Shown here piece after piece: positions 3,690 through 58,850 of a stretch of DNA of 64,000 bases. Location of the stretch: contig NC_091970.1 of NCBI RefSeq assembly GCF_036711975.1, positions 12,407,501-12,471,500 of the forward strand, written 5' to 3'. Below the pieces are notes generated by a model that saw nothing but the letters and a program-made list of their open reading frames with translations, was not told where the DNA came from and made no database searches. Made by a program: the position numbers and the translations under genes. This stretch comes from Onthophagus taurus (Eukaryota; Arthropoda; Insecta; Coleoptera; Scarabaeidae). How positions within the stretch are numbered: the first letter of the stretch is position 1; the number at the start of each line of letters is the position of its first letter.

Positions 3690-4068
3690 TAAGCTCGAAA
3701 CCGGTTCCGAATAAATTGATATTAAGCAAGTAAGAAGTTTTTTATATAGTTTAAATTAAAAAAAAAAAAAAAAAAACTTAACATAGTAGTCTGGAAACTA
3801 AGATTTAAAGAAAAATATCAACACTTACTTCAATGCCCTTCAAGGCCCCCATTCAAAGCCCTTGTATATTCAACTAAGATATAATACAAAAAATATAATT
3901 CTTCAAAGTTTTGAATACTTTAACGTCAATCCAAACAGCACCATAACAATACGCGCTGCCCTCTATGAACAGATTGCTCAATTTATTAATTAGTGCCAAC
4001 CTTAAACAATCAAAAATACCCAAATTAATCAGCATTGTCATTTTTGAGGTTAACTTTCGTTATAAAAA
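3690..4068. other. Upstream region of DOHH, no gene seen
   Basis: AT-rich spacer with an A homopolymer near 3759-3776. It must hold the promoter and 5' leader of the deoxyhypusine hydroxylase gene, but I see no clear TATA box or other element to name. Confidence 0.4.
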
Positions 4069-38718: not shown

Positions 38719-41700
38719 AAGCAAAGTAACAGCTGCAGAAATGAGGTACCGGGTGGTACAAGATCCGTATAAATAATAAGAGGCCCGCAAAAAGATGAAC
38801 AAAATCAAAACATAGATCAAGAACAAAACATAGATAACGTTGGCAGAAGACTAGATACTGCTTCTAAAAAACTAAATACTGCTTTCTGAAGACTAGATAC
38901 TGGTTTCTAAAGACTAAAATTGCTTTGTGAAGACTAAATACTGCTTTCTAAAGACTAGATACTGCTGACAGGTCTAAGTACTGCAAAAGAAAAATGATAT
39001 TGTTGGAGAAAACATACATAACGTTGGCAGAAGACTAGATACTGCTTCTAAAAGACTAAATATTGCTTTCTGAAGACTAGATACTGCCGACAGGTTTAAA
39101 TGCAGCGTCTGGAACACTAAATACTGCCTTCTAAAGATTAAAATTGCTTTGTGGAGACTAAATACTGCTTTCTGAAGACTAGATACTGCTAACAGGTCTA
39201 AATATTGCAAAAGAAAGATAAAATATTTTGGAGAAAACATACATAACTTTGGCAGAAGACTAGATACTGCTTCTAGAAGACTAAATACTGCTTTCTGAAG
39301 ACTAGATACTGGTTTCTAAAGACTAAAATTGCTTTGTGAAGACTAAATACTGCTTTCTAAAGACTAGATACTGCTGACAGGTCTAAGTACTGCAAAAGAA
39401 AAATGATATTGTTGGAGAAAACATACATAACGTTGGCAGAAGACTAGATACTGCTTCTAGAAGACTAAATATTGCTTTCTGAAGACTAGATACTGCCGAC
39501 AGGTTTAAATGCAGCGTCTGGAACACTAAATACTGCCTTCTAAAGATTAAAATTGCTTTGTGGAGACTAAATACTGCTTTCTGAAGACTAGATACTGCTA
39601 ACAGGTCTAAATATTGCAAAAGAAAGATAAAATATTTTGGAGAAAACATACATAACTTTGGCAGAAGACTAGATACTGCTTCTAGAAGACTAAATACTGC
39701 TTTCTGAAGACTAGATACTGGTTTCTAAAGACTAAAATTGCTTTGTGAAGACTAAATACTGCTTTCTAAAGACTAGATACTGCTGACAGGTCTAAGTACT
39801 GCAAAAGAAAAATGATATTGTTGGAGAAAACATACATAACGTTGGCAGAAGACTAGATACTGCTTCTAGAAGACTAAATATTGCTTTCTGAAGACTAGAT
39901 ACTGCCGACAGGTTTAAATGCAGCGTCTGGAACACTAAATACTGCCTTCTAAAGATTAAAATTGCTTTGTGGAGACTAAATACTGCTTTCTGAAGACTAG
40001 ATACTGCTAACAGGTCTAAATATTGCAAAAGAAAGATAAAATATTTTGGAGAAAACATACATAACTTTGGCAGAAGACTAGATACTGCTTCTAGAAGACT
40101 AAATACTGCTTTTTGAAGACTAGATACTGCCGACAGGTCTAATTACAGCGCCTGGATTACTAAATACTGCTTTCTAAAGACTAAAATTGCTTTGTAGAGA
40201 CTAAATACTGCTTTCCGAAGACTAGATACTGCTAACAGGTCTAAATATTGCAAAAGAAAGATAAAATATTTTGGAAAAAACATACATAACTTTGACAGAA
40301 GACTAGATACTGCTTCTAGAAGACTAAATATTGCTTTCTGAAGACTAGATACTTCCGACAGGTCGAAATACAGCGTCTGGAACACTAAATACTGCTCTCT
40401 GAAAACTAGATACTGCCGACAGGTCGAAATACAGCGTCTGGAACACTAAATACTGCCTTCTAAAGACTAAAATTGCTTTGTGGAGACTAAATACTGCTTT
40501 TTGAAGACCAGATACTGGTAACAGGTCTAAATATTGCAAAAGAAAGATCAAATATTTTGGAGAAAACATACATAACTTTGGCAGAAGAATAGGTACTGCT
40601 TCTAGAAGACTATATACTGCTTTCTGAAGACTAGATACTGCCGACAGGTCGAAATACAGCGTCTGGAACACTAAATGCTGCTTTCTAAAGACTAAAATTG
40701 CTTTGTAGAGACTAAATACTGCTTTCTGAAGACTAGATACTGCCGACAGGTCTAAATACAGCGTCTGGAACACTAAATACTGCTTTCTAAAGACTAAAAT
40801 TGCTTTGTGGAGACTAAATACTGCTTTCTGAAGACCAGATACTGGTAACAGGTCTAAATATTGCAAAAGAAAGATCAAATATTTTGGAGAAAACATACAT
40901 AACTTTAGGTACTGCTTCTAGAAGACTAAATACTGCTTTCTGAAGACTAGATACTGCCAACAGGTCTAAATACAGCGTCTGGAACATCAAATACTGCTTT
41001 CTGAAGACTAGATACTGCCGACAGGTCTAAATACAGCGTTTGGAACACTAAATACTGCTTTCTGAAGACTAAAATTGCTTTGTGGAGACTAAATACTGCT
41101 TTCTGAAGACTAGATACTGCTAACAGGTCTAAATATTGCAAAAGAAGATAAAATATTTTGGAGAAAACATACATAACTTTGGCAGAAGACTAGATACTGC
41201 TTCTAGAAGACTAAATACTGCTTTCTGAAGACTAGATACTTCTGACAGGTCTAAATGCAGCGTCTGGAACACTAAATACTGCCTTCTAAAGACTAAAATT
41301 GCTTTGTGGAGTCTAAATACTGCTTTCTGAAGACTAGATACGGCTAACAGGTCTAAATATTGCAAAAGAAAGATAAAATATTTTGGAGAAAACATACATA
41401 ACTTTGGCAGAAGATTAGATACTGCTTCTAGAAGACTAAATACTGATTTCTGAAGACTAGATACTGCCGACAGGTCTAAATACAGCGTCTGGAACTCTAA
41501 ATACTGCTTTCTGAAGACTAGATACTGCCGACAGGTCGAAATACAGCGCCTGGAACACTAAATACTGCTTTCTAAAGACTAAAATTGCTTTGTGGAGACT
41601 AAATACTGCTTTCTGAAGACTAGATACTTCCGACAGGTTTAAATGCAGCGTCTGCAACACTAAATACTGCCTTCTAAAGACTAAAATTGCTTTGTGGAGA

Positions 41701-42044
41701 CTAAATACTGCTTTCTGAAGACTAGATACTGCTAACAGGTCTAAATATTGCAAAGGAAAGATAAAATATTTTGGAGAAAACATACATAACTTTGGCAGAA
41801 GACTAGATACTGCTTCTAGAAGACTATATACTGCCGAGAGGTCTAAATACAGCGTCTGGAACAGTAAATACTGCTTTCTAAGGACTAAAATTGCTCTGTG
41901 GAGACGAAATACTGCTTTCTGAAGACTAGCTACTCCTGACAGGTCTAAATATTGCAAAAGAAAGATAAGATATTGTTGGAGAAAACATTAAAAAGGCGCC
42001 CGGTTGCAGTGCACCCCTTGCACCTCCCTGTAGCGCCGCCTCTG
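38719..42044 (-). repeat. Minisatellite-bearing element, copy 2 (inverted relative to copy 1)
   Basis: It has the same 21-bp units, spacers and two termini as 5836-8402, on the opposite strand. The right end is the complement of CAGAGGCGGCGCTAC...GTGCAAGGGGTGCAC...GGGCGCC (to 42044). The left end is AAGCAAAGTAACAGCTGCAG...GGTGGTACAAGATCC (from 38719). The CAGAGGCGGCGCTA start resembles a hAT-type terminus, but the other end is not its inverted repeat. Between 38900 and 40130 a 409-bp higher-order unit is repeated three times almost without change; the rest is more diverged. Confidence 0.85.
38901..40130 (-). repeat. 409-bp higher-order unit, three near-identical tandem copies
   Basis: The same 88-codon translated block recurs unchanged at 38974, 39383 and 39792, exactly 409 bp apart. 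The nucleotide blocks with GTTGGAGAAAACATACATAA and TTGCAAAAGAAAGATAAAAT recur at the same spacing. Each unit holds about 17 minisatellite repeats and two spacers. Very low divergence means recent amplification, unlike the flanking array. Confidence 0.9.
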
Positions 42045-42079
42045 CGGCTGATGTCGGATTTTAAAATTAATCACTTTTC

Positions 42080-42640
42080 AACGTTTAGCGTTATGAAAGC
42101 GTCGATGGCTGAACGTGTAATTCGAACTGTTAAACAGAGGATTTACAAGTTCTTTAGTTTATATGGGAACCATAAATGGGCGCACCAATTAAAGGACATA
42201 ACATCTCGATGTAACAGTACAAAACATACAACTACGAAAATGAAACCATCTGTAATAAATTCGAAATCTGTAAAGAATAAACTTCTCAACACAGTGTACA
42301 GGATGTCCAAATTTCGATGGGTTTGCAGGGTATCTCAGTTATTATGAAATGAAAAAAAATGAAAAAAAAGCTATTGTTTTGTGAAACTTACAATGGCGCA
42401 AACCAAATTTTCATAGTCCTTCTCGTTTTGATATACTACAGTAGCTCAGGTTCGCGAAACCCCCAGAGGAAAGTTTAGAGTTGGAGATACCGTTCGTATC
42501 AGTAAATATAAACATGTGTTTGATAAAGGATATTTGCCCAACTGGGCCACCGAATTGTTTAAAATCGTTAAAGTGAAAATCACAAATCCAATTTCACATT
42601 TATTGGAGGACAGTTGACGTTCATAAGATCCTTCATCCGT
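42080..42640 (+). mobile_element. Polinton/Maverick integrase relic (fossil), copy 1
   Basis: The translation shows MAERVIRTVKQRIYKFFSLYG and TKHTTTKMKPS, followed after an interruption by VGDTVRISKYKHVFDKGYLP and NWATELFKIVKV. This is the end of the retroviral-type integrase core and the C-terminal SH3/chromodomain-like part characteristic of Polinton integrases. No capsid, polymerase or terminal repeats are nearby. It is an old, broken fragment; a second relic of the same region is at 58575-58850. Confidence 0.85.
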
Positions 42641-42680
42641 CGCAGACCCGATGGCTTTCTGTATCAATAGTGGTAAAGAG

Positions 42681-43657
42681 AATTTTAGAACAGTGGTCAG
42701 CGTTACAATTATATTTTAATTCGAAATGGTTAGATGAATGTCTTCTCACTGTGGAGCAAATCCATAAAGGCTTGAATGACCCTTTCACAAAATTATTTTA
42801 TGTTTTTACATAGTGTGCTTCCAAAAATTGTGACTATCAACCAATACTTTCAGTCTTGCTGTTATATTATATGGAAAGACGGTATATTGTCAAAACAAAT
42901 TTATCGCAGCTCGATCCTGAGAATAAAACTTATTTTTTACCAAAAAATTTTATATATTTGGGAATACAATTTTTTAATGAAATTAAAAAGCCAGAAATTT
43001 CCAATAATCATTTATTATTAAGTGCTTTCTATGAAAGATGTCAGAACTTTTATAGCGTTCTCTGTATGGAAATTAAAAAAAAGATTTGATTTTGAAGATT
43101 ATTTACTGTCAAATATTCATATATTTACTCCCAAAAATGCAGTTTCACATCAAGTAAGACAAATATTTCCTTCCTTAGTAAATTTATTAAATTGTACAAC
43201 TCGTTGTTTTGATTCTAAAGATTCTCAGTTAATTGATGATGAATGGAGACTATTGGCAAGTTATCATTTTGAGGTGAATGAAATAAATTGTGAAGAAGAG
43301 ATTGATATGTTTTGGGGAAAATTACTTGTTTATCAAGATAAGGGAGGAGCTCTAATTTTCAAAAATATTTCACAGTATGTTTTAAATTTGTTATCCCTCC
43401 CACATTCTAACGCTACATGTGAACGAATTTTTAGTATAGTTAACTTAAGTAAAACTAAAACACGTAACAAATTAATAATTCGAACAATTAATGGTTGCTT
43501 ATTAACCAGTGAAAGAATAAAAAAAGATGGAACTTGCGTTCAGTTTTGTCCTGATCAGAAGATGTTTGATCGTTTCACCAAGAGCACTATGTATGAGAAA
43601 GAAAGTTTTGAAACAGAAAGTAATGAAAATGACTTTATTATAGAAAATGCAGATTAA
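42681..43657 (+). pseudogene. hAT transposase, C-terminal half
   Basis: QWSALQLYFNSKWLDECLLT begins at about 42693. The middle (VLPKIVTINQYFQ, then TYFLPKNFIYLGIQFF) lies in shifting frames. A long final frame at 43022-43657 contains the hAT dimerisation signature LLSLPHSNATCERIFSIVNL, then SKTKTRNKLIIRTINGCLL. It is of the ZBED/ZMYM-like hAT group. At least two frameshifts occur (one in the A-run near 43080), and the N-terminal DNA-binding half is missing, replaced by the Polinton relic. Confidence 0.85.
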
Positions 43658-43883
43658 ATATAGAATCAGTGATGGGCGCTGGGTAAATACCCGGCGGGTA
43701 GGTATTTATAAAATGGGCATTTATCTGGGTATTTACCCCGGCTTAGAATAAATACCCAAACAGTACATATAAAAGTGATACAAGTAAAAATATAACAGAT
43801 TCGAACAAAAATGTAGAGGAACATGATGAAATCAGCGTTGAAGACGAGGAATTGTCAACGCTCGAAGACGTATTATCAGGTAA

Positions 43884-44353
43884 CTACTGCTCATTCTTGC
43901 GACGATGATCCGCCCAGTTCCACTTGAGCTTTGCCACAATGTTGACAGCATCATTTACGCCAGTTCTTCGTGGGTCTTCATTTCGTATGTGGTCGACGTC
44001 TCCATCTTTCTTTGTGTTACTTTGAGCCTCCTGGTAATGGCCACCGTTAATGTTAAAGTTGCGGAACCGTATGTCATAATCAAAGGAAGTACGCATTGAT
44101 TGAAAACCTTTCTTTTCAAATATACAGGAATATCGCTCATGAAGATGTCTCTAATTTTCCTGTAGGCTGCCCATGCGAGTATCATCCTTCTCTTTAGTTC
44201 GCTTGTTTGATTATTATCTCTCGATACATGAACCTCATGGCCAAGATGCGAACAAACAGAGATGAGTACTTTAAGAACAATAGTGGAAAAGACAAGAAGA
44301 GATAGAGTAAGGAACAAAATTGTAAAAGAATTTTGTGGACTCGGAGATGTCAT
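43884..44353 (-). pseudogene. LINE (RTE-like) fragment: RT thumb to C-terminus
   Basis: The minus strand reads LGHEVHVSRDNNQTSELKRR, then AWAAYRKIRDIFMSDIPVYL and KRKVFNQCVLPLIMTYGSAT, and in a second frame NIVAKLKWNWADH. This pattern (KRKVFNQCVLP followed later by LKW-WAGH) ends the RT protein of RTE/endonuclease-RT-type LINEs. One frameshift near 43960. The matching RT palm piece is 900 bp away at 45300-45573, with opposite-strand pieces between. Confidence 0.75.
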
Positions 44354-45230
44354 GAGATTTGCTAGGAGAAAAATAAAAAAATTTAATGAGTACTTCCAAA
44401 GAATGGAAGAAACCTGGCTGATTAAGACAGCAAGAGACCAAAGATTAGCTAGAAAGAGATCCCGGGAGACCAGGAAGTTCGATTTCCAGCTCTAATGAAA
44501 CACCATGAAAGATGCGTAAAAAACAGGTTACAACCTGAAGAAAAGAAGAAGAATAATAAGACCTTAAACGAACTACTTAATTTTCAATTGGATATCAACA
44601 ATCTCATGGATCTTGGAATCTTGGATTTGATGGAAGTGCAATATGACTAGAAAAGAATCAAACAACAAGAATTAATGAAGCACAAAAACTGAATTTAGTC
44701 ATTAATATTAGACTGATACTCAATTCAGGACATTCAAAATTGTTTTTCAAGCATTAAAGAAATCGTTAAATACTTTCGAAGAGTATTACGTAAAGGAGAA
44801 TGGTCGGTAGTGAAAATATAAACATTTCCGAAATATATGTACACTTAAAGCTAATAACACCAGGAATGTGTATAAATTTGTTAGACAGTTAAGATAAAGG
44901 CACAAATCGCACGTAGCTCTATGCTGAGATGGAACAGGAAAAATAATATATGATAGTGAAATGAATTACATTTGGAAAAATTATTTCCAAAACCTGTTAA
45001 GCATAGAAACTGATTTGGAAATAGACAGCAGTCCGTCACACCAAAGAAAGGATAGTGTCATGGAACCTATATCAATCAGTGAGGTTCAAAACGCAATCCC
45101 TGCGTCAAAACATGGAAAGGCATCAGAGATTAATAACATACCATCGAAAGTATTCAAGATAGAAGTATTCATTATCACCAATATTGATGTTAGAGCTTGG
45201 AACAAGATTTGTCCTAAATTTTGTTGATAT
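44262..45230 (+). pseudogene. LINE-related fragments on the opposite strand
   Basis: 44262-44495 encodes a basic segment (FCGLGDVMRFARRKIKKFNE, RMEETWLIKTARDQR) resembling LINE C-terminal tails. 44961-45230 encodes ISISEVQNAIPASKHGKASE followed by INNIPSKVFK, the pre-RT 'GKAxGxDxIP' block in degraded form. 44500-44960 holds no clear frame. Their plus orientation against minus neighbours shows rearrangement or independent insertions. Confidence 0.5.
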
Positions 45231-45234
45231 TTAG

Positions 45235-45573
45235 CCCGACTCAGTTGCATACTTCAGCATCAGTTTCATCTCTCCAAGGCTATCCGAAATAAGGACTATA
45301 TCGTCCGCGTAGCGCAAATTACTTAGGTATTGTCATCAATTTTTATACCTTTTTAAGTCCAATCCAGTTGTTTAAATGCACTCTCCAGGACTGTGATGAA
45401 CAATTTGGGTTCAACATTATATTGCCTTGTCTTAACCCACGCCCAATGAGTATTCGGTCAGTACTTTCATGCAATTTTACCGTCATTGTAGCATTTTTGT
45501 AAATGTAATAAATAAGTTTGGTGTATCGATAATGGACTCTGCATTCTTGAAGTACTTGCAAAACTGCCATCAA
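45235..45573 (-). pseudogene. LINE (RTE-like) fragment: RT palm region
   Basis: The minus strand reads YTKLIYYIYKNATMTVKLHE, then RILIGRGLRQGNIM (the 'GRGxRQGD' block), and in another frame LRGRYSPYFG... near the place expected for the FADD region. It is a degraded palm domain of the same type as 43884-44353, from which it is separated. Confidence 0.7.
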
Positions 45574-46015
45574 CTCAATTTAAATCAAATTTTATAAATA
45601 CCTCTAAATACCCATCTTGGGTAAATACCTCCGGGTATATATCCAGGGAATTTTCCCTTGAAAATAAATACCCGGGTATTTAACAAACTGTATAGAATAA
45701 ATAGACTTCGGACCTTTAGTTATTGTAAGTAAAATAGATTTATATATTATTTCTAAATAAATAAATATTTAAATGTGTTACGTACAATTATTTACAAGCT
45801 GTTTCAAAAATTTACTCAGCAAGTGTATTGAAATGTACGGTAAATTTTTTTGAAATACGGTAATTTTATCTGTAAAATACGGTACTTTCTGACGCAGAGG
45901 TTGGCAACGCTGGGCCGGGGTGTGGCACACCATAGATAACTTATATAGATGTGACAATTACGTAAAATTTTTGTACACGGCACCAGCGCTCCGAACGGCT
46001 CGGCCCAGTACTAAT

Positions 46016-46975
46016 AGGTTTGTTCGAGCAGCGGCAAAACCAATCTGCAAATTGGGAGACGCATGCGCAGTATGGTAACGGTGTTCGAGCAGTAAATAAA
46101 TCCCGAATTCTGACTTTTTCGACTACCAGTCGTGTGTTCGATCAGAATTTAGGATTAGTTGGGTACTGGTTGGGTATAGTTTTTACAATTTGCTGACTTT
46201 CGAAAAATTGTTGACGGATTGTGTACTGTCATGCGCAGTGGATACTTTGCGAGTTTGTTGGTAATAAACGTAGCACGTCGAGAGGGCGACACAATCGATT
46301 TATATTTGTAAACACAATATCCGCTTTATTAATCTGTAATTGTTGTTAACACGTTCTTAAGTACCTAGTATAAATCAGAGTATAAATAATCATCTCCGAT
46401 ATTTCGTCCTCAAGTGAAGATGTGCCTTTAGTAAATTTTGAATCAAGTGATGATGACCTAGAAGGTGAATTACTTGATTCGCCAGTGCGAATAAGGCCAA
46501 AAATGAAGAGTACTTCGACATAACAGTACAACAGTATAGCGACTCAGAATTTATGGAACATTTTCGTTTGAGTAGAGTAGTTGCTGAAGATCTAGCAAAT
46601 CGATTTAAAGCCAGCCAGTATTATAATTATCAAGCCGGAGGAAATGGAAAATTAACAGAAAACAACATATATTAATATTTCTGTGGTTTGCTGGTCATCA
46701 GACGGCTTCTTTCCGAGATGTAGCTGATAGATTTAATATTAGTATAAGTTCCCTACAAACTGTAATCCAGCGAACAGTGTATTTTATAAGCAACCTATCA
46801 GACGAAGTAATACAATGGCCATATACAATGTTTAATACAATGTTTTCATATTTTTACTGTTCGAGCTGTGACAAATATCGTACTAGTTCGCAATTAATCG
46901 TTACGTGCGCATGCGCATTCATGAATGCACTAATTTGTCACAAACTAATACCTAATTCTCTGCTCGAACAAACCT
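46016..46975 (+). mobile_element. PIF/Harbinger element remnant, about 960 bp
   Basis: Inverted ends AGGTTTGTTCGAGCAG and its complement CTGCTCGAACAAACCT are flanked by AAT on both sides. Inside, plus-strand pieces in different frames (46390-46830) read DDLEGELLDSPVRIRPKMK, HFRLSRVVAEDLANRF, YYNYQAGGNGKLTE, WFAGHQTASFRDVADRFNIS and VIQRTVYFISNLSDEVIQWP. This is the N-terminal domain of a Harbinger transposase. The DDE domain is gone. Internal CATGCGCA motifs recur near both ends. Confidence 0.8.
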
Positions 46976-46979
46976 AATA

Positions 46980-47463
46980 TTAAATAGTGGCTAACGTGAT
47001 AAATCTAAAATTTAATATTTTTGTGTGTAATTAAATAAAAAATTAAAATCATTTGTGAATTTTAATAATCTTTTTATTAAAATTATTATCATACACATAA
47101 AGTCTTATTTTAATATAAAAGAATAATAACTATAAACAATGTGTAATGATTAATGATACACTGTTAAAAATTTTACGAAGTAATTTAACTCTTCGGTATA
47201 AGGTGAAATATTACCGCGAAAAAGTGATAAATTTACCTAAATTCTAATAGGTTGCAACACGTTTGAGAGTCAAAATAACTTTGTTAAAAGATGTTAAAAA
47301 TACGGTGTTAATCTGTTTATTCCTCACAGTGTAACTTTACACTTTATAATACCTTATACCCCTTTCCATTTTGTAGCATTAAATGTAATGCCAATATTGT
47401 GTCTAAACTTGAAATTGACTGCTTAAAAAGTTGTCTCTTTGGTAATAATTTTCTTTTATTTCT
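46980..47463. other. AT-rich stretch, no gene
   Basis: No coding frame or element recognised. It lies downstream (minus strand) of the possible last exon of the THAP gene and may be its 3' flank. Confidence 0.35.
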
Positions 47464-47676
47464 TTAGGATGTTATACTCTGGCGCTGGAATTTCCTCTTA
47501 TACATCACTGCTTTCCTGTATAAATGTTGGGCTTTTGGTGATAAGTCGTCTTGTTTGTGGACACCAACTTCCTCCAATAAACTCTTCCTTTGTTTAGCTG
47601 TCAAAAAATATCCAATAATGATCCCGATTAACGCTGTTTCCCCATTAAGCGGGGTTACCCTGTAATATGAAATCAA
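47464..47676 (-). CDS. Possible 3' exon following the THAP exon
   Basis: An open frame follows a good acceptor (TTCATATTACAG) and reads VTPLNGETALIGIIIGYFLT, AKQRKSLLEEVGVHKQDDLS and PKAQHLYRKAVMYKRKFQRQ. A preceding segment at about 47880-47925 reads in phase into it (YGTLGCFNIHQCNLIGDFR) through a donor CAG|GTAAG at about 47847. The reading phase does not connect directly to the THAP exon at 48031, so a missing exon or a decayed gene is possible. I recognise no domain. Confidence 0.35.
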   Translation of the reverse strand: MISYYRVTPLNGETALIGIIIGYFLTAKQRKSLLEEVGVHKQDDLSPKAQHLYRKAVMYKRKFQRQSITS

Positions 47677-48030
47677 ACTTTAAAAAAATTATACTACATT
47701 CTTTTGTAATAAAAGGCAAATTAAACGTTTTTTGAATGATGTTTCGTTTATTAATAAATAACTCTTATTAAGAGTTATATGCCATTATAGATAATTTAAC
47801 CAGAGCTTTTCAAAATAAACGATTTATAAAACACATAATTTCTTACCTGAAGTCTCCAATGAGATTGCACTGGTGGATGTTGAAGCAACCTAAAGTCCCA
47901 TATCTGCATGTGGAGTAGTGGGCGTGTTATTCGAAACACTTGAAGTACTGACTTCTAAGTACTGATATCCTATATGTGAAAAAAAAAATGCCTCAATCAT
48001 AACAACATTTTGATAATTTTATACATATAC

Positions 48031-48279
48031 TGGCAACTTTAATGATGGTACTACTCCTTTCAACAATTTGTTGTTACGTCCAACATCCTCTCGTCGAAAA
48101 GGCTTATCACAAACTCGAAAATTATTATAAACCCTCAAGTGTTCACACTGAAGCAGGTTTTCTCGCACACAACATAAAACCCATCTTTGATATATTTCTG
48201 GATACATTTGTGGGTTTGGAAATCGGTAGAAACTTTCATACCTTTGTACGCATCCACTAATGGCGCAACTTTTTGACAT
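48031..48279 (-). CDS. THAP zinc-finger exon
   Basis: MSKSCAISGCVQRYESFYRF begins a C2CH THAP domain: Cys pair C5...C10, the RFPNP turn, RWVLCCVRENL, the RVCDKPF block (where Cys-x2-His is usual, here with Pro in place of His), and GVVPSLKLP as the closing proline motif. THAP domains bind DNA, in host factors and in P-type transposases. The exon has an acceptor (TTTTCTTGTAG) just before CAGAAAATG, a donor at 48030 (GTATATG), and an upstream 5' UTR exon ending CGTG|GTAAGT near 48493, so it looks like a real spliced gene. The His-to-Pro change would weaken zinc binding. Confidence 0.65.
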
Positions 48280-48560
48280 TTTCTGCTACAAGAAAATAAG
48301 ATGCATATATATTTATTTTACAAATACCTAATCCAGTTCCATAATCAATGTTTAAATTTCAGAGGTTTTTTATGAGCATTAGTTTCCATATTATTTTAAG
48401 GGCAACTTATATTTAAAAATTTATTGTGAAACTGGAGATCATAATATAATAATATGAAATAAATAAAAAAAAGTATATCAAATGTACTTACCACGAATAA
48501 AATTTCGTAAATTTCTTTAAAATTTACTATCAAACACAAAGCCGCATCAAAACACTAACC

Positions 48561-48889
48561 AACTTGACAAACAACTTAGAAAACAGTAGAAAAACAAATT
48601 GACGAAACGACTACTTAAATCCTAAAATATTTATTAATTTAAACTGCCAAGATAAAGTAGATATCTACATAATATAACGCAATATAACGCCATCTATCCC
48701 GTCGGCCCGATACTAATAATGACGTCACTTTGTACGAACACGACGTTAATAAGTGCCAGGGGTATGTGGCACACTCACTCATAGAAGACGCTTAATGGCG
48801 CACACCTCTGTTAATAATTTATATTCAATCTTAATAAAGATATAAATCAGAAGGCGTGGTGTTTATTATTAATAACACACACGACAGTG
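48561..48889. other. Putative promoter side of the THAP gene; no gene
   Basis: It contains CGTCGGCCCGATACTAATA (about 48698), similar to CTCGGCCCAGTACTAATA at 45998, and CCAGGGGTATGTGGCACAC (48758), similar to CCGGGGTGTGGCACAC at 45916. These two direct matches bracket the Harbinger/THAP block and may mark the edges of one larger element or of a duplication. Confidence 0.4.
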
Positions 48890-49384
48890 AGCTCTAAATT
48901 GTTAAAGTTTAGTTTAAATTTTGGGTTTTAAATGAAAAGGCTATTATCTCCCCATTTAAAAGTAAGTCTCACTACAAGGGTTTAATTTCATTGATTTAAT
49001 TGATTTCTATCTTTAATTTTAGCGCCCGAGATGCATTCGCCCCTCGACATGGCCTTTTCTTAAAGATATCTACAGGCTAGATTAAGATGTGTGTATTCAT
49101 TTTAAATGTTTATATTTATATTAATTTTTAATTTTAATTTATTCCAATTAAATTGGTCGCCTGAATGTAATTTGTTTTATTAAAATTAAATTAAATTTCC
49201 ATCCCCTACATGTATTAAGATTTACCTATTATTATTTCAAACATATAACTTTAAAGTTCATATTTAATTCACTTTTTTGATATAAGAAGATATTGAAGTT
49301 TGGGTTATTTAGAAATATCAAACAATTGCTTGAATTTATATGCAACCAAGCATATTTTTATTTCAAAATAGTATTTCTTATTTT

Positions 49385-49699
49385 CTATTCTTCAGCTAAA
49401 AATCTATGAAGTACTTCGGAACTTGATCCTTTTAAATTTAATTTAAAATTAGGACGTTTCAAGCAAAACGCACACCACATAATTTTACTTTCCACTAAAT
49501 CTACGAATTTATTCTTATTGATACTATTATGTTCTAATCTAACGACCTTTTCAATTGGTTTAAATTCGTCTTTATTTTCTAAAACATCCATTTCTATTAT
49601 AAGAATCCAATCGTACATCTCGAAACACTTCGCACATTTAATTGTTAAAGTTGAAATCAACTTTGACAACAACTCGCATGACACATCAATTCTTAACAT
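49385..49699 (-). pseudogene. 5'-truncated inverted copy of the CxxC protein gene
   Basis: From CFEMYDWILIIEMDVLENKD to the C-terminal EVLHRFLAEE, about 80 codons match the right-arm gene with only a Val/Ile difference visible (EKVVRLEH against EKIVRLEH). The preceding residues (MLRIDVSCELLSKLISTLTI) differ entirely: exon 1 and the start of exon 2 are replaced. The frame is still open with its own ATG, so a 104-residue product cannot be excluded. The 3' flank also matches the right arm. Confidence 0.7.
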
Positions 49700-49963
49700 A
49701 ATTTTTAATCCTCTTCAATCATAATTCAACAAAATTCTCTGCGTGGTTCAATAATACAAATATAAAAAGAAATACCAAATGACTCATTTTATAGGACACG
49801 TTTGTAACAAAATGACGTAATCTCCTGAAGATGCTGTAAATGTATAGCGAAACCGGTTGAGAGAAAAATTAAATAAAAATCCATTTAAGTGCAAAAACGA
49901 ATTTTATTTATCATTTTTTATTACGTTAGAAAATAAGTAACACTTGCTTTATCTAAATCACAT

Positions 49964-50075
49964 TATGACATTCAGAAAAACAGTTCTTTTTTTCATTACA
50001 ACATAAATAAACATTGCACGCAGTACATTTTGAGTGGGGTCTAGCTTTGGCAGAACAATTTTCACAACTTCGTTT
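49964..50075 (-). pseudogene. piggyBac transposase C-terminal Cys-rich tail, left arm
   Basis: The minus strand reads KRSCENCSAKARPHSKCTAC then NVYLCCNEKKNCFSECH and a stop. This is the cysteine-rich zinc-binding domain that ends piggyBac transposases and binds the transposon ends. Only this tail is left; the DDD catalytic domain is absent, replaced inward by satellite repeats. Confidence 0.85.
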
Positions 50076-50157
50076 TATTAAGTAATTTTGGCAGTAAATT
50101 TGAATATTTACTTATCAGACCTGTATTTACAGAACGACGAAAATCTGATAGAATATT

Positions 50158-52950
50158 GAGAAATATAACCTAAATGTATCAAAAAAGATGCTAATTTAAA
50201 AATTCGTGGAAGCCGTATTTATTGAAATTAAGGAATGAGACTTATTCTAGATTAAAGCTCAAAGTTTTCTCTTTACAATGAGGTATAATAATTGTTGGGT
50301 TGAATTGGAAAAATATTGAGAAAAAAAATGTTGAAATAAAACTTACATTTTCGTATAACCTAAAAGTGTCAAAAGAGATACTAATTTAAAATTTCCTGGA
50401 AGCCGTATTTATTGAAATTAAGGAATAAGACTTATTTTAAATTAAAGCTCAAAGCTTTCTCTTTACAATGATGTATAATAATTGTTGGGTTCGATTGGAA
50501 AAATATTGAAAAAAGAAATGTTGAAACAAAACTTACATTTTCGTATAACCTAAAAGTATCAAAAAAGATGCTAATTTAAAAATTCCTGGAAGCCGTATTT
50601 ATTGAAATTAAGAAATGAGACTTATTCTAAATTAAAGCTCAAAGCTTTCTCTTTACAATGATGTATAATAATTGTTGGGTTGGATTGGAAAAATATTTAG
50701 AAAAAAAATGTTGAAATAAAACTTACTTTTTCGTATAACCTAAAAGTGTCAAAAGAGATGTTAATTTAAAAATTCCTGGAAGCCGTATTTATTGAAATTA
50801 AAGAATTAGACTATTCTAAATTAAAGCTCAAAGCTTTCTCTTTAAAATGATGTATAATAATTGTTGGGTTGGATTGGAAAAATATTGAGAAAAAAAATGT
50901 TGAAATAAAACTTACATTTTCGTATAACCTAAAAGTGTCAAAAAAGATGCTAATTTAAAAATTCCTGGAAGCCGTATTTATTGAAATTAAGCAATGAGAC
51001 TTATTCTAAATTAAAGCTCAAAGCTTTCTTTTTACAATGATAAATAATAATCGTTGGGTTGGATTGGAAAAATATTGAGAAAAAAAATGTTGAAATAAAA
51101 GTTACATTTTCGTATAACCTAAAAGTGTCAAAAAAGATACTAATTTAAAATATCCTGGAAGCCGTATTTATTGAAATTAAGGAATGAGACTTATTCTAAA
51201 TTAAAGCTCAAAGCTTTCTCTTTAAAATGATGTATAATAACTGTTGGGTTGGATTGGAAAAATATTGAGAAATAAAAAAAAATGTTGAAATAAAACTTAC
51301 ATTTTCGTATAACCTAAAAGTGTCAAAAAAGATGCTAATTTAAAAATTCCTGGAAGCCGTATTTATTGAAATTAAGGAATAAGACTTATTTTAAATTAAA
51401 GCTCAAAGCTTTCTCTTTACAATGATGTATAATAATTGTTGGGTTCGATTGGAAAAATATTGAAAAAAGAAATGTTGAAACAAAACTTACATTTTCGTAT
51501 AACCTAAAAGTATCAAAAAAGATGCTAATTTAAAAATTCCTGGAAGCCGTATTTATTGAAATTAAGAAATGAGACTTATTCTAAATTAAAGCTCAAAGCT
51601 TTCTCTTTACAATGATGTATAATAATTGTTGGGTTGGATTGGAAAAATATTTAGAAAAAAAATGTTGAAATAAAACTTATTTTTCCGTATAACCTAAAAG
51701 TGTCAAAAGAGATGTTAATTTAAAAATTCCTGGAAGCCGTATTTATTGAAATTAAAGAATTAGACTATTCTAAATTAAAGCTCAAAGCTTTCTCTTTAAA
51801 ATGATGTATAATAATTGTTGGGTTGGATTGGAAAAATATTGAGAAAAAAAATGTTGAAATAAAACTTACATTTTCGTATAACCTAAAAGTGTCAAAAAAG
51901 ATGCTAATTTAAAAATTCCTGGAAGCCGTATTTATTGAAATTAAGGAATGAGACTTATTCTAAATTAAAGCTCAAAGCTTTCTTTTTACAATGATAAATA
52001 ATAATCGTTGGGTTGGATTGGAAAAATATTGAGAAAAAAAATGTTGAAATAAAAGTTACATTTTCGTATAACCTAAAAGTGTCAAAAAAGATACTAATTT
52101 AAAATATCCTGGAAGCCGTATTTATTGAAATTAAGGAATGAGACTTATTCTAAATTAAAGCTCAAAGCTTTCTCTTTAAAATGATGTATAATAACTGTTG
52201 GGTTGGATTGGAAAAATATTGAGAAATAAAAAAAAATGTTGAAATAAAACTTACATTTTCGTATAACCTAAAAGTGTCAAAAAAGATGCTAATTTAAAAA
52301 TTCCTGGAAGCCGTATTTATTGAAATTAAGCAATGAGACTTATTCTAAATTAAAGCTCAAAGCTTTCTTTTTACAATGATAAATAATAATCGTTGGGTTG
52401 GATTGGAAAAATATTGGGAAAAAAAATGTTGAAATAAAAGTTACATTTTCGTATAACCTAAAAGTGTCAAAAAAGATACTAATTTAAAATATCCTGGAAG
52501 CCGTATTTATTGAAATTAAGGAATGAGACTTATTCTAAATTAAAGCTCAAAGCTTTCTCTTTAAAATGATGTATAATAACTGTTGGGTTGGATTGGAAAA
52601 ATATTGAGAAATAAAAAAAAATGTTGAAATAAAACTTACATTTTCGTATAACCTAAAAGTGTCAAAAAAGATGCTAATTTAAAAATTCCTGGAAGCGGTA
52701 TTTATTGAAATTAAGCAATGAGACTTATTCTAAATTAAAGCTCAAAGCTTTCTTTTTACAATGATAAATAATAATCGTTGGGTTGGATTGGAAAAATATT
52801 GAGAAAAGAAATGTTGAAATAAAAGTTACATTTTCGTATAACCTAAAAGTGTCAAAAAAGATACTAATTTAAAATATCCTGGAAGCCGTAAATTAAGGAA
52901 TGAGACTTATTTAAAATTAAAGCTCAATGCTTTCTTTTTAAAATGATCTG
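50158..52950. repeat. About 190-bp satellite, roughly 14-15 tandem monomers with higher-order structure
   Basis: Each monomer contains TTTTCGTATAACCTAAAAGT, CCTGGAAGCCGTATTTATTG, AAATTAAAGCTCAAAGCTTT and TTGTTGGGTTGGATTGGAAA. Monomer spacing is 187-197 bp. Variant monomers recur: the TTGGGTTCGATTGG type at about 50485 and 51439 (954 bp, five monomers). The TTTACAATGATAAATAATAA type occurs at about 51030, 51984, 52368 and 52754, that is 954 bp and then about 385 bp (two monomers) apart. So a five-monomer unit was duplicated, then a dimer was amplified. Confidence 0.9.
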
Positions 52951-53060
52951 TAATAATTACACCTAATAGTCATTTATCAAAGAGATACCGTTTTGAACAA
53001 CAACATTCAACAAAACCACTTTTCACTAAACCTCACATCTGGACGAATAAGTTTAAATAT

Positions 53061-53907
53061 TAGGGCTCGGAATCGTATTCGAATAATTCGAATAGTCGAA
53101 TAGTCGAATATTCGTAATTCGAATAATTTTCATAATTTATAAGCCGAAAAGTAGAATATTTGAATAGTCGACTATTCTATTAATAGTCGAATATTTGAAT
53201 ATTCGACTATTCTAATAACACTCAATAGTTGATACAGAAAATGAAATGAATCATAACCCTAAAAAAAAAAGTGCCTTTGATATTTTGTTTCCAAATGAAA
53301 ATTCAGCAGCAGCTGATTTAAATGTAGTTGATATGTATTATTCAGACTGCCCTATACAAAAGAATATGTGTCCTTTGCAGTGGTGGAAAAACAATGAAAA
53401 TAACTATCCGAAATTGTCAAAGTATGCAAAATGTTATCTCTCTATTTCTGCGACATCAGTTTCATCGGAGCGTAGCTTCTCAAAAGCTGGTAATGTAGTG
53501 AACGCGAAACGCGCTTGTCTAAAATCAGACAATGTAAAAAAAATTTGTTTCTTAAGTGCAAATTTGTAGTCATTACGTTATTATATTATTAATACATTTT
53601 TCTTTTTCTCTTTATTGTTGTATTACTTTTTAACTTAACGAGGAAAAACATATTCTTACTTGTTTATTTGTTTCTCCTGAAATTCTGAAAATTTTTTAGT
53701 ATACGTTTTGTTAATCAAATAATCCGAATATTTGAAAAATTCGACGATTCGACTAGTCGATGACTATTCGACTAGTCGACGACTAGCCGACAACTACTTC
53801 ACTAGTCGAATATTAATAAATATTCGAATTATTCGACTATTCCAATTATTCGAATTGAAAATTACACGACTATTCGAATACTTAAATTTGTAAAATTCCG
53901 AGCCCTA
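53061..53907 (+). mobile_element. Internally deleted hAT element, 847 bp, 8-bp target duplication
   Basis: Inverted ends TAGGGCTCGGAAT and ATTCCGAGCCCTA are flanked by TTAAATAT at 53053-53060 and 53908-53915. Subterminal regions on both sides are dense in the words ATTCGAATA, TAGTCGAATA and GACTATTCGA, which are mutually complementary. It carries the 3' end of a hAT transposase (53246-53569). Confidence 0.92.
53246..53569 (+). pseudogene. hAT transposase C-terminal dimerisation domain
   Basis: The frame contains CPLQWWKNNENNYPKLSKYA, KCYLSISATSVSSERSFSKAG and NVVNAKRACLKSDNVKKICF, the classic hAT C-terminal signature (BED zinc-finger/Hermes-like group). The rest of the transposase was deleted when the element shrank. 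The remaining 107 codons are open, including an in-frame ATG at 53246. Confidence 0.85.
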
Positions 53908-54259
53908 TTAAATATACCTAAAAACCCTACAGTGCGGATTGTGTCATTTTTTAACCGGCGAGACGATAGCAACAAACCGCCCAGCAACAAACTTTTCCCT
54001 TTATATTTCCACCTACTTCTAGGGTCCATATCTTCGTTATATAGAAAGATAGCGAAAAACTAAACACATATCATCAACGGACGAAATGTCCGCTGATATG
54101 TTGATAATAAGAGCAAGAAAAAATAAGTAACGTCGCGCTGTCACGAATTTTTGCCGCGGCTAAACCACGCTTGGGTCAATAACTGTCTTATATGGCGAGG
54201 AGGAAACTCTAGAACTATATTCATCCTATGGGAAATTTTCTGCTCTTTTCATTGGTATA

Positions 54260-55855
54260 CAGGGTGATTCATAAGTAATGGGCCAAATTGTAAATGTACG
54301 TTCAGGAGGCCAAAATAATAATATTTTCATTAACAATAATGGGTCTTAGTCTGCTCCTTACTGAGATACAGGATGTTAAAGCGAAAAAAATAAAATAGAT
54401 TTTTGTTAATAGATCAGCTACTTTTCTACATAATGACTCATAGTTGACTTATAGTTTTTGTAAGGGTAAACAATAATGTGTGAGAGGATTTGAGTTAACT
54501 CGTAGATGTCGCCACATGCGCCATATGAATTATGAAACGTCAATGAGCTTTTACGTTTAATGAATAGTTTAAAACATTTTATTGTTAAGTAAACTGATTC
54601 ATTCTTGTCCTAACATAAATCAAAATGCCGAGACATAATTACTTTTCAAACGAAGAAATGAGAGACATGTTATGCGTTTACGCACAAGAACGTTTTTCTG
54701 GGCAAGCAGCATCCAGAAAATATCGTGAAATGTACCCTTACAGAAGGCAGCCAAACCGGAAGATATTTCAAAATATTTATAATCGATTGGGTGAAACAGG
54801 TTCATTTCGTCCAAAATATCATACAGGACGTCCTAAGATTATCACTCCGCAGCAAGAAGATGAAATTTTGGTAAGAATTGCGCAAAATTCTGAAATAAGC
54901 ACTCGTCGATTGTCTGCAGCAACTGGAATAAGCCAACCATCCGTGACTAGAACGGTGACTACACAAGGAAAATTTATATCCCTATCATTTTATACCTGTG
55001 CAAAATTTACTTCCAACAGATTATCGAATCAGAGTTCAATTTTGTCAGTGGCTAAAAGGAAAATTGAATAATAATCCAACATTCCTAAATAACATTCTTT
55101 TCACGGATGAAGCAACCTTTACCAGACGCGGAGTTTTTAATTGGCGAAATAGCTCATAATTAAGCTTAAATTTAATTTAACTTCGCACAACATTAACATG
55201 TAGGTTTTGATAACAGTTGTCGTAAGTGGTCTTAGTTCAAGTCTGTTCTAATGTTGTATTTCGTTTTATTAACTGGCGTACAATAAATTGTTTTATTACG
55301 TAATTTTTTTATGGTTTCAGTTTAATATTGTTATCAATTATCAATTACGGTTAGGTAAATGTCAACATTCCATGCCATGCTTGTGTCTTAACAGATTAAT
55401 GCTACGTCGACCACCGTGAAATGTAGTGTAGTGAATTAGTAAAATTCAAATATCTCGAAAATCGTTAATATTTTCAAGATCAAAGAAGTATAGCTTTTTT
55501 CTACAGAAATGATGGGGCTATCCAAATTAAACAAGTATGTTGTAAAATAATGAGCGATAAAAAATTTGTAGCTGATTTCATCTAATTCATATGGCGCATG
55601 TGGCGACATCTACGAGTTAAGTCAAATCCTCTCACACATTATTGTTTACCCTTACAAAAACTATAAGTCAACTATGAGTCATTATGTAGAAAAGTAGCTG
55701 ATCTATTAACAAAAATCTATTTTATTTTTTTCGCTTTAACATCCTGTATCTCAGTAAGGAGCAGACTAAGACCCATTATTGTTAATGAAAATATTATTAT
55801 TTTGGCCTCCTGAACGTACATTTACAATTTGGCCCATTACTTATGAATCACCCTG
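54260..55855 (+). mobile_element. DD41D-like Tc1/mariner element with about 290-bp inverted repeats
   Basis: CAGGGTGATTCATAAGTAAT at 54260 and its complement ending 55855, each with TA outside, start inverted repeats that stay over 95% alike for about 290 bp (GTAGATGTCGCCACATGCG and complement are the inner parts). The repeats are long relative to the 1.6-kb element. It is inserted in the foldback MITE at 53945-56248. It contains a shortened transposase gene. Confidence 0.9.
54625..55158 (+). pseudogene. Transposase of the 54260 element, N-terminal half only
   Basis: MPRHNYFSNEEMRDMLCVYA begins the double helix-turn-helix (residues 1 to about 120, including RLSAATGISQPSVTRT). After a frameshift near 54985, RVQFCQWLKGKLNNNPTFLN and NILFTDEATFTRRGVFNWRN carry the first catalytic Asp before a stop at about 55157. 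The remaining two-thirds of the catalytic domain are deleted. The element is therefore non-autonomous but keeps a DNA-binding domain. Confidence 0.88.
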
Positions 55856-56377
55856 TATAACACATCTCAATCACACGTTTGCACAATCGTTTTTCAGCCC
55901 AGCAACAAACTTTTCCCTTGTATTTCCGGCTACTTATCGGGGCAATATTTTGGTTATCTAGAAAGATAGCGAAAAACTAAACACACGGTTGGAAAGCTTG
56001 GTCTTTTCTATATCTTAAAAAACCATGTTTTCGTCCGCCGATATATTAATAATAAGAACAGAAAAAAATAGGAAACGACACAGGTTCGGTTCGGTTCGGT
56101 TTAAGATAGAGAAAAGACCAAGCTTTCCAACCGTGTACTTAGTTTTTCGCTATCTTTCTAGATAACGAAGAATGGGTCCTAGAAGTAGGTGGAAATATAA
56201 AGGAAAAAGTTTGTTGGTGAGCGGTTTGTTGCTACCGTCTCGCCGGTGAAAATGTTAGTTTTTGCTCAATATGTTTTTTCTCAATATTCTATCAGATTTT
56301 CGTCGTTCTGTAAATACAGGTCTGATAAATAAATTTTCAAATTTACTGCGTAACGAAAATCTTGTAGCGCAAGTTCA

Positions 56378-56506
56378 AAAGAAAGACGAAGTTGTGAAAA
56401 TTGTTCTGCCAAAGCTAGACCCCACTCAAAATGTACTGCGTGCAATGTTTATTTATGTTGTAATGAAAGAAAGAACTGTTTTTCTGAATGTCATAATGTG
56501 ATTTAG
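56378..56506 (+). pseudogene. piggyBac transposase C-terminal Cys-rich tail, right arm
   Basis: The frame reads KERRSCENCSAKARPHSKCT then ACNVYLCCNERKNCFSECH and a TAG stop, nearly identical to the left-arm copy at 49964-50075 (Arg for Lys once). Seven or more cysteines plus the closing His are placed as in piggyBac C-terminal domains. Catalytic domain absent. Confidence 0.85.
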
Positions 56507-57047
56507 ATAAAGCAAGTGTTACTTATTTTCTAACGTAATAAAAAATGTATTATTTTTATATTAGCAATAATAGCTTTGATTATATATATATATAGATTGT
56601 ATATATAATCAAAGATAATAGTATACTGAAAATATATTTTAATACTTGACTGAAATTACTTGACGAGATTGCATATTTTGCTAAAATTGATTCCAAAGGC
56701 CTCTACTGAGTGTATTTTGATAACGTTTTAATTCTGTCACAAAGTTTCAAAATTTTTGATTTATTGGGACACAAAGGGTTAAACGGAAATCAAATGTTAA
56801 ACCTTCAACACTTAACGAATTACATCGAAAGCTGTATTGAAGTAAATTCCAAAAATTTACTTGAAAACAAAATAATTTAAATCGTATAAAATTTAACGTA
56901 ATTCTCATTAAAATAAAAATCTTCCAGCCGTTAAATGAGGTTAATGCGGTTAGATATAGATTACGAATTTCAACTTTACATTTAAATACAATAGTTTTAA
57001 ATTAAACAGCTTAGTATTCAACTTGTTTTTCGTTAACATATAATACA

Positions 57048-57709
57048 ATGACTCAATTCAACGCACTTTCATTAAAAGATTTAACCCGAACTAAAATTAA
57101 TCTAAGCATATCTCAACGTGTACATGTGTTAGTACTAGTTCGATATTTACCGTGGAAGTTAGTATTAGAGTTGTGGAACACGTGGTTTGAGGATAATTGG
57201 AATCAACTGGGAACACATGAAAACTGTTACGATAATGTGGACGTAATAGACTTATTTAATTTTAAAATGAATCATATGATTCAATGCGCCCTATTTAGGA
57301 ATATAGAAATTTTCAGGTAAATTAGAAATTAAAATATAGTCTATAAAGTTAAATGAAATTTTAATAATACTTTAGGGATGAACTTTTCAACCAAATAAAT
57401 GAGAATGGATTAGTATGCGCGTGGATGACATACATTGAAACTAATCACGGACGTGTATGTGCGAATTGTTTTGAGATGTACGATTGGATTCTTATAATAG
57501 AAATGGATGTTTTAGAAAATAAAGATGAATTTAAACCAATTGAAAAGATCGTTAGATTAGAACATAATAGTATCAATAAGAATAAATTCGTAGATTTAGT
57601 GGAAAGTAAAATTATGTGGTGTGCGTTTTGCTTGAAACGTCCTAATTTTAAATTAAATTTAAAAGGATCAAGTTCCGAAGTGCTTCATAGATTTTTAGCT
57701 GAAGAATAG
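57048..57709 (+). CDS. Unrecognised 200-residue protein with two CxxC pairs (two exons)
   Basis: Exons 57048-57316 and 57376-57709 are joined over a 59-bp GT-AG intron (CAG|GTAAAT...TTTAG), giving MTQFNALSLKDLTRTKINLS... and ending EVLHRFLAEE. Visible features: a hydrophobic helix-rich N-terminal half (VHVLVLVRYLPWKLVLELWN, about 25-44), and Cys118-x2-Cys121 (VCANC) and Cys172-x2-Cys175 (WCAFC) about 50 residues apart, a likely single zinc site. An acidic/basic middle (EMDVLENKDEFKPIEK) lies between. No signal peptide or membrane segment is clear. I do not recognise the family. The intron and clean frame argue that it is or was functional. It sits 500 bp downstream of a piggyBac tail in an inverted-repeat arm, with a truncated inverted copy at 49385. 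It could be a host gene, transposon cargo or a captured foreign gene. Confidence 0.6.
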
Positions 57710-58232
57710 AAAATAAGAAATACTATTTTGAAATAAAAATATGCTTGGTTGCATATAAATTCAAGCAATTGTTTGATATTTCTAAATAACCCAAACTTCA
57801 ATATCTTCTTATATCAAAAAAGTGAATTAAATATGAACTTTAAAGTTATATGTTTGAAATAATAATAGGTAAATCTTAATATACGTAGGGGATGGAAATT
57901 TAACAAATAAAACCAATTACATTCAGGCGACCAATTTAATCAGAATAAATTAAAATTCAAAATTAATATAAATATTAAACATACGTCTCCATATCTTAAA
58001 AAAAAAGCCCGTATCGAGGGGCGTGTAGCCCCTCGGGCACTTGTATTTTGGGACATAAATATCGATCTTAGCGTCCGCTAAAATTAAAGATAGAAATCAA
58101 TTAAATCAATGAAATTAAACCCTTGTAGTGAGACTTACTTTTAAATGGGGAGATAATAGCCTTCTCATTTAAAACCCAAATTTTAAACCCAAAATTTAAA
58201 CTAAACTTTAACAATTTAGAGCTCACCTCTGT

Positions 58233-58574
58233 AACTATTCATGTCTGAATCTTAACTGAAAATGCTGTAAAACGATATTTCACAAGGTTTTATGCAGGAA
58301 ACCCTTATCAAATGTGGTTTCTTAAGGAAAAAAACTTGGTTTTACAGTTTTAGAAATTTTAAAATTATTAATGTACGATTTTTATTAAAACGATATTGCA
58401 TAACGTTTTATGCAGGAAACCCTTATCAAATGTGGTTTCTTAAGGAAAAAAACTTGAGTGAAATTCCATAACACAAAGGTTTGAAAATTAAATTTTATTT
58501 AAAAAAATTCACATCGATATAAAGAAATTTTATGATATATCTTTATTTGATGTCCAAGAATTATGCGATGAATA
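58233..58574. repeat. Direct repeat of about 70 bp
   Basis: TTTTATGCAGGAAACCCTTA followed by TCAAATGTGGTTTCTTAAGG and AAAAAAACTTG occurs at about 58287-58342 and again at about 58406-58457, 119 bp apart. The preceding AAACGATAT words also match. It lies between the palindrome's outer edge and the Polinton relic. No gene in this stretch. Confidence 0.8.
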
Positions 58575-58850
58575 CTACTTCCTTTTCAACGAGGTAAACG
58601 TTGGGTGAGCGGTCCTTCGAAGTTCGAATTCGTAAAAAGCGCCTTTAATCGGCTGTCCACGAATGTCCTCCAATAAATATGAAATATCCCAGTTGGGCAA
58701 ATATCCTTTACTAAACACATGTTTATATTTACTGATACGGACGGTATCTCCGTACACTGTGTTGGGAAGTTTATTCTCCACAAATTTCGAATTTATTTCA
58801 GATGGTTTCATTTTCGTAGTTGTATGTTTTGTACCACTCAAACCAACATA
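58575..58850 (-). mobile_element. Polinton/Maverick integrase relic (fossil), copy 2
   Basis: The minus strand shows TKHTTTKMKPSEINSKFVEN, GDTVRISKYKHVFSKGYLPN and LLEDIRGQPIKGAFYEFELR, the C-terminal part of a Polinton integrase. It is clearly related to the relic at 42080-42640, on the opposite strand, and extends further at its C-terminus. No other Polinton genes or terminal repeats are seen. Old and broken. Confidence 0.85.

Follow-up and report, generated by a model that had tools for sequence, protein, structure and literature searches.

The question raised by this 64,000-nucleotide stretch of Onthophagus taurus DNA (the whole stretch that was analysed, hereafter the window) is what to make of a large imperfect palindrome, each arm of which carries the Cys-rich tail of a piggyBac-type element and a copy of an unnamed gene, with satellite DNA in the loop. 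An earlier note suggested that this could be a composite mobile unit, or a piggyBac-related element with the gene as cargo. The palindrome itself has the look of ordinary transposon wreckage rather than of a new cargo-bearing mobile unit. We think that the locus is probably a dead, one-off inverted duplication of transposon material, in which a module left by a Polinton/Maverick-type element had already been hit by a piggyBac-type element and was then broken up.

Comparison of the window with itself revealed pairs of inverted blocks at 49191-49637/57457-57903 (447 nt, 98%), 49912-50076/56383-56547 (165 nt, 99%), 48912-49024/58076-58188 (113 nt, 98%), 50091-50163/56277-56349 (73 nt, 97%), 49109-49181/57906-57978 (73 nt, 93%), and 48887-48933/58180-58226 (47 nt, 98%). 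By BLASTN, the outer arms (48887-49637 versus 57457-58226) matched with E=0 and 88% identity with gaps counted, and the inner arms, which are the two tails (49912-50163 versus 56277-56547), with E=2e-104, confirming the arms of about 800 and 250 bp that had been described before, with a piggyBac-related element in both. The homology of 48887-50163 to 56277-58226 is well above chance level, and the inverted repeat is real. Its first proposed extent, 48890-58232, is too short; 58752-58834 corresponds to 42299-42217 and 58688-58751 to 42546-42483, inverted and at 94-95%, so that inverted matches reach 42217-42546 on one side and 58688-58834 on the other, and integrase remnants lie at mirrored positions in the arms (42045-42608(+) and 58838-58533(-)). 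The left arm is split by about 6.3 kb of other sequence between the gene part and the outermost integrase part. This interrupting sequence has a repeat edge at 48766, where 23 of 36 genome-match rows stop, and another at 48886, the end point of one match on contig C1; integrase copies stop at 42610-42612 in most rows, where another repeat starts. A long terminal repeat (LTR) retrotransposon was considered as the left-arm insertion and rejected, as no LTR pair appeared in the BLASTN self-comparison of the window. The outer arms align with 36 substitutions in 718 compared bases (one stretch is poorly aligned) and five gap events; because the arms have diverged, a foldback-read assembly artefact seems unlikely.

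The two gene copies are unequally preserved. The right copy has two exons encoding 200 amino acids (aa), and its spliced frame is still open, yet it lies outside any complete element seen at the locus. The left copy lacks exon 1, as the earlier note had stated, and also the first 81 nt of exon 2; the different joining segment noticed on this side proved to be, from 49654, a piece of a dispersed family. Five of the 253 shared coding bases of exon 2 differ between the arms, and protein identity is 95-98% between them versus at most 70% for the other gene matches listed. A genome search with the gene returned at least 164 matches, mostly single exons, the window's own counted. We compared 33 gene loci outside the window, representing 31 distinct places (L007 overlaps L012, and L008 overlaps L028), and 19 tail loci, all with 1.5-kb flanks. 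An exon is retained at the DNA level in 31 of the 33 gene loci and a conserved 3' flank, which includes the integrase end, in 25. The tail occurs in none of the gene loci and the gene in none of the tail loci; within this sample the two are never together, the outcome that the earlier note had itself named as a refutation of its reading. The TTAA-flanked ends that it had proposed looking for do exist, on the element made of tail and satellite.

The integrase and the convergent gene, on the other hand, form a recurrent module in this genome. Scoring 40 of 81 integrase candidates, and setting aside the window's own and a row belonging to another repeat, gave 38 integrase places; a gene copy lies within 5 kb of 33 of them, convergent in 32 and mostly 1-2 kb apart, and there is none within 5 kb at C8:15130527, C10:15051644, C2:29079233, C3:7944821, and C11:4886802. 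The L088 relative is an open 326-aa integrase with an rve core at E=2.5e-14, above the Pfam cut-off, and a Chromo match at E=2e-4, below it. Of 51 matches to B-family polymerase (PolB; PF03175), 14 have a gene copy within 20 kb and 37 do not (91 of 343 candidates scored; 89 gene positions from the matches listed), versus a mean of 3.4 and a maximum of 9 in 2,000 shifted-position controls. The combination of rve, chromodomain, and PolB is what we take to be the mark of a Polinton. Given the recurrent pairing of gene and integrase and the PolB neighborhood, Polinton/Maverick is the best name for the source of the module, and we infer the same name for the fragment in the window. The likeness consists of an rve integrase with a chromodomain-like C terminus in the arm relative and of PolB matches near gene copies. 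The window differs in that it holds integrase remnants and one gene, with no polymerase, capsid genes, or terminal repeats identified in the arms, where no dedicated search for PolB or terminal inverted repeats (TIRs) was made, and in that the partner gene has no Pfam match above the family cut-off.

Several other arrangements involving these sequences were seen. Mirror-image pairs of Polinton-type PolB at C11:11126875-11136510 and C8:14207605-14217744 share one mirrored order, as would be seen if a palindromic derivative of a Polinton had moved or been copied; in a PolB pair at C4:2334223-2340986, at least 359 bases are mirrored with 100% identity, and the mirrored PolB loci include L077 and L078. 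At C11:4.39-4.57 Mb, several gene copies recur every ~80-88 kb, among them two convergent pairs with a distance of ~13.65 kb, a pattern resembling segmental duplication of a Polinton-rich block. Six integrase-gene pairs at C7:27.45-27.86 Mb have match starts 1157-1158 bp apart, probably a recent local amplification. Within the window, a 21-bp/~225-bp minisatellite forms two blocks in inverted orientation, 5892-8397 and 38825-41988, with 88-91% identity in some stretches; the second block adjoins the left-arm integrase.

The tail and the satellite belong to a single non-autonomous element, dispersed in the genome, that has TIRs of 13 bp and TTAA sites. The satellite adjoins the tail in all 19 tail loci outside the window, and the order of the element is TIR, 5' region, satellite array, tail, 3' region, TIR. 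Complete copies (L047, L052, L055, L058, and L064) measure 1261-2472 bp between TTAA sites; TTAA flanks both ends of all five, and the TIR CCCTTTGTGTCCC is present at both ends of L047, L052, L055, and L064, with two changes at one end of L058. The window has TTAA at one end only and a single TIR, at the 3' end of the right element. A string of TTAA plus TIR, TTAACCCTTTGTGTCCC, occurs at 516 places in the genome (246 and 270 by strand) and its backward control at none; the tail query gave 261 first-look candidates, and the main matches of the 40 scored are 90-100% identical. The longest stop-free frames in the five complete copies are 64-109 aa, and of a transposase only tail codons were seen in the window; with no stop-free frame above 109 aa, the element is non-autonomous. 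The Cys pattern of the tail was recognized by eye, Pfam giving only a B-box match below its cut-off, and the tail is putatively assigned to piggyBac from this pattern together with the TTAA and the TIR. Elements of the piggyBac superfamily have a TTAA target, short TIRs starting with CCC, and a Cys-rich tail. The element shares the target and the TIR, 13 bp long and also starting with CCC, and has a putative tail of this kind; it differs in that its interior is a 190-bp satellite array of variable length with no long frame. At another locus (L079:4416-5000, minus strand) we saw the end of a different piggyBac-type transposase (DDE_Tnp_1_7, E=4.5e-11), with a further integrase-like frame, recognized by eye, near it at 4001-4288.

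Among the places listed, 28 convergent TIR pairs span 1088-2816 bp, and their lengths tend to a period of ~190-200 bp; nine periods were tried, which leaves p values of 0.004-0.01 as indicative only. Where the far end of the array is visible, it falls near unit position 31-36 in the window, L052, L055, L063, L064, and L065, at 28 in L058, and elsewhere in L053, L057, and L067. The array in the window does begin at the inner edge of the left arm, as first noticed, since 50164-52958 follows the arm end at 50163, and the ~20 bp resembling it at the right inner edge are present as well; they are the usual satellite/tail boundary of dispersed copies. For the left side, the evidence does not support a loop once filled entirely by satellite: the array stops at 52958 and enters a 5' region known from dispersed copies. 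Tetris/TIR-220 of Drosophila virilis is likewise a non-autonomous DNA transposon with internal tandem repeats, of ~220 bp, that also form longer satellite-like arrays; it is foldback-like with its repeats within the TIRs, whereas the present element is of piggyBac type with a single internal array (PMC4079207). The TCAST elements of Tribolium are DNA transposon-like elements bearing satellite sequence, with satellite segments in TIRs of ~269 bp and in some cases an ACT target duplication, in contrast to TTAA, a short TIR, and a tandem array here (PMC3411249). In the open-access literature searched (titles and abstract openings) no satellite-carrying piggyBac element was found; the family is new as far as that literature goes, and satellite-carrying transposons as such are already known.

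The site at which this element entered is preserved in the right arm, 265 bp upstream of the start codon of the gene. The related gene locus L003 reads ...gcTTAAacggaaatc where the window reads ...cacaaagggTTAAacggaaatc; the sequence past TTAA is shared, and the sequence before TTAA in L003 is unrelated. L003 thus holds an empty TTAA site, which identifies a piggyBac-type insertion into the gene module, and because the 3' TIR and TTAA stand between tail and gene, the gene is outside the piggyBac element. The later hAT, foldback, and mariner-like insertions proposed for the loop were borne out. The hAT fragment has a target duplication and sits within the 5' region of the left piggyBac-like element, which retains its tail, satellite, and most of that region and is cut near 53947 by the foldback. 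On its other side the foldback adjoins the satellite remnant of the right copy, and it is flanked by CATTTTTTA and GAAAATGTT, which differ from each other; owing to this mismatch, it probably lies on a rearrangement junction. A clean foldback insertion with TTAA duplication was rejected, as copies of the foldback end in ACCGGCGAGACG and the flanks in the window mismatch.

Table 1. Features of the palindromic locus, in window coordinates
Feature	Position	Strand	Remarks
Polinton/Maverick-type integrase remnant, outermost left arm	42045..42608	+	tblastn with L088 integrase, 63% aa, E=9e-69; inverted DNA matches to parts of 58664-58834
Interrupting sequence, left arm	42613..48886	.	Pfam: hAT-dimerisation open reading frame (ORF) 43022-43654, THAP ORF 48019-48285
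3' flank, left gene copy	48887..49384	-	inverted match to 57710-58226
Left gene copy	49385..49637	-	only 3' part of exon 2; 97.6% aa identity to right copy over 83 aa
Joining segment, left arm	49638..49911	.	from 49654, part of dispersed foldback/MITE (miniature inverted-repeat transposable element)-like family, best copy 100%; replaces ~0.9 kb of arm
Left piggyBac-type Cys-rich tail	49912..50163	-	contains rearranged stretch
190-bp satellite array of piggyBac-like element	50164..52958	+	Tandem Repeats Finder, 14.7 copies; dispersed copies
Left element, satellite to lost 5' TIR, part 1	52959..53060	+	same order in L063, L064; partly L052, L065
hAT fragment element	53061..53907	+	target duplication TTAAATAT at 53053-53060 and 53908-53915; Dimer_Tnp_hAT E=7.8e-22
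Left element, 5' region part 2, cut before TIR	53908..53947	+	dispersed copies
Foldback on central junction (probable)	53948..56252 (ends approximate)	.	no matching target duplication
Mariner-like element inside foldback	54258..55856	+	280-bp inverted arms, TA at each end; DUF4817 E=7.8e-7
Satellite remnant at normal satellite/tail boundary	56253..56276	+	most dispersed copies match from first base of query, 56253
Right piggyBac-type tail	56277..56547	+	Cys-rich codons, without complete transposase frame
Right element, 3' end	56548..56778	+	ends in TIR GGGACACAAAGGG at 56766-56778
TTAA target site, right element	56779..56782	+	empty site kept in L003
Gene exon 1, right copy	57048..57316	+	unnamed Polinton-associated gene
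Gene intron, right copy	57317..57375	+	59 bp, GT..AG; same position in 6 other copies read
Gene exon 2, right copy	57376..57709	+	two CxxC pairs
3' flank, right gene copy	57710..58226	+	inverted match to left arm
Polinton/Maverick-type integrase remnant, right arm	58533..58838	-	tblastn with L088 integrase, 57% aa, E=2e-38

Under the history that we favor, a Polinton/Maverick-type element would have left an integrase-plus-gene module at the locus, and a non-autonomous piggyBac-like element would have entered the TTAA upstream of the gene. The integrase-gene-piggyBac stretch would then have been copied in inverted orientation, giving two copies head to head with piggyBac material at the center, and a hAT element, the foldback with its mariner-like element, a MITE-like piece at the left joint, and ~6.3 kb of other sequence would have broken the arms and hidden the center. 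We infer a single inverted duplication as the origin of both arms and a piggyBac insertion that preceded it, and we favor the order insertion, inverted duplication, break-up; the locus itself is most likely inactive now. Once the rearranged stretch of the left tail and the ends are removed, leaving 245 of 338 columns, 3 of 232 sites distinguish the two tails, which are mutually nearest among 21 rows, by one or two sites only. Several observations weigh against this history. The kinship of the tails is weak: L040 differs from the right tail at 4 sites and from the left at 5, compared with 3 between the two tails. When every column is counted, the right tail is 91.9% identical to the left tail and 93.6-97.3% identical to the other 19, which were selected from 261 candidates for their score to the right tail. 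Because the TTAA and the 5' part of the gene are gone from the left arm, a shared insertion site is not demonstrable there, and the central foldback is without a matching target duplication, so the original junction is unseen. Finally, the short integrase blocks differ by 5-6% and exon 2 by 2%, a contrast not expected of a single duplication, which weighs slightly against one.

The last of these points would fit better with two separate Polinton insertions in inverted orientation, each or only one of which received its own satellite piggyBac element, as would tails that are not clearly sisters; satellite piggyBac copies are common, with 516 TTAA-plus-TIR places, and inverted neighboring gene copies are present elsewhere in the genome. 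We nevertheless consider two insertions unlikely. None of the 33 other gene loci, at 31 distinct places, has a tail within 1.5 kb, so for such elements to hit two sister copies separately on the same flank would take a strong coincidence, and the arm gene copies are far nearer to each other than to any other among the matches listed. The composite mobile unit, with piggyBac-type ends and the gene as cargo, draws on the adjacency of gene and tail in both arms; in view of the absence of that association from both samples of dispersed loci within 1.5-kb flanks, the right-arm 3' TIR and TTAA that leave the gene outside the element, the empty site in L003, and the integrase as the gene's own recurrent partner, it is extremely improbable.

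The palindrome might also have arisen within the Polinton, if its protein-primed linear genome formed a snapback or inverted dimer that was integrated later, and the mirrored PolB pairs on C11, C8, and C4 in the same genome speak for such a process. The axis in the window, however, lies within piggyBac material and not at a Polinton end, no PolB or Polinton TIR was noticed in the arms (again without a dedicated search), and the C11 and C8 palindromes are made from the PolB side, which makes this origin very unlikely. A broader proposal, that this genome repeatedly makes palindromic Polinton derivatives, of which the window would be one formed by replication-type inverted dimerization, and that the gene is a Polinton accessory gene, possibly distantly NS3-like, under purifying selection, we regard as decidedly unlikely as a whole. 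An inverted duplication of a Polinton module already carrying a piggyBac-type insertion remains our preferred explanation.

The gene deserves attention in its own right. Eight spliced copies gave 28 pairs, in which the ratio of nonsynonymous to synonymous substitution rates (dN/dS) is 0.21-0.50 for 21 pairs with dS >0.3 and 0.41-0.93 for six closer pairs, one pair being saturated; judged from these sequences, the gene appears to be under selection. Its four Cys form the two CxxC pairs, one of which is disrupted in L017. A comparison with PDB gave a best E of 0.59 and no confirmed relative, and viral_contigs gave 21 and 18 pattern matches, none confirmed as relatives. NS3-like proteins of densoviruses and baculoviruses, as described in one study, have four conserved cysteines and are common to several insect viruses, and bidnaviruses are linked there to Polintons (PMC4061559). 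The four-Cys likeness of the gene to these proteins is a lead only, no sequence match having been found in viral_contigs. Five parvovirus NS1-like stretches are present in the genome (C6:31646081, C3:7978329, C11:3235804, C11:3621428, and C11:4340828), two of them in open frames of 632 and 638 aa, and we read them as endogenous densovirus-like remnants; no NS3-like frame was seen by eye in 901 bases around the start of one of the five. No description of the gene was found in the open-access literature searched, again in titles and abstract openings, and the family is unnamed and, as far as that literature goes, new.

What this locus offers to biology lies in its components. A piggyBac-type element that moves its own satellite array, with lengths tending to step by about one unit, would offer a direct route by which a genome becomes seeded with satellites. 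The other component, a compact spliced gene that accompanies Polinton-type integrases and is apparently selected, is a testable addition to the virus-like transposons.

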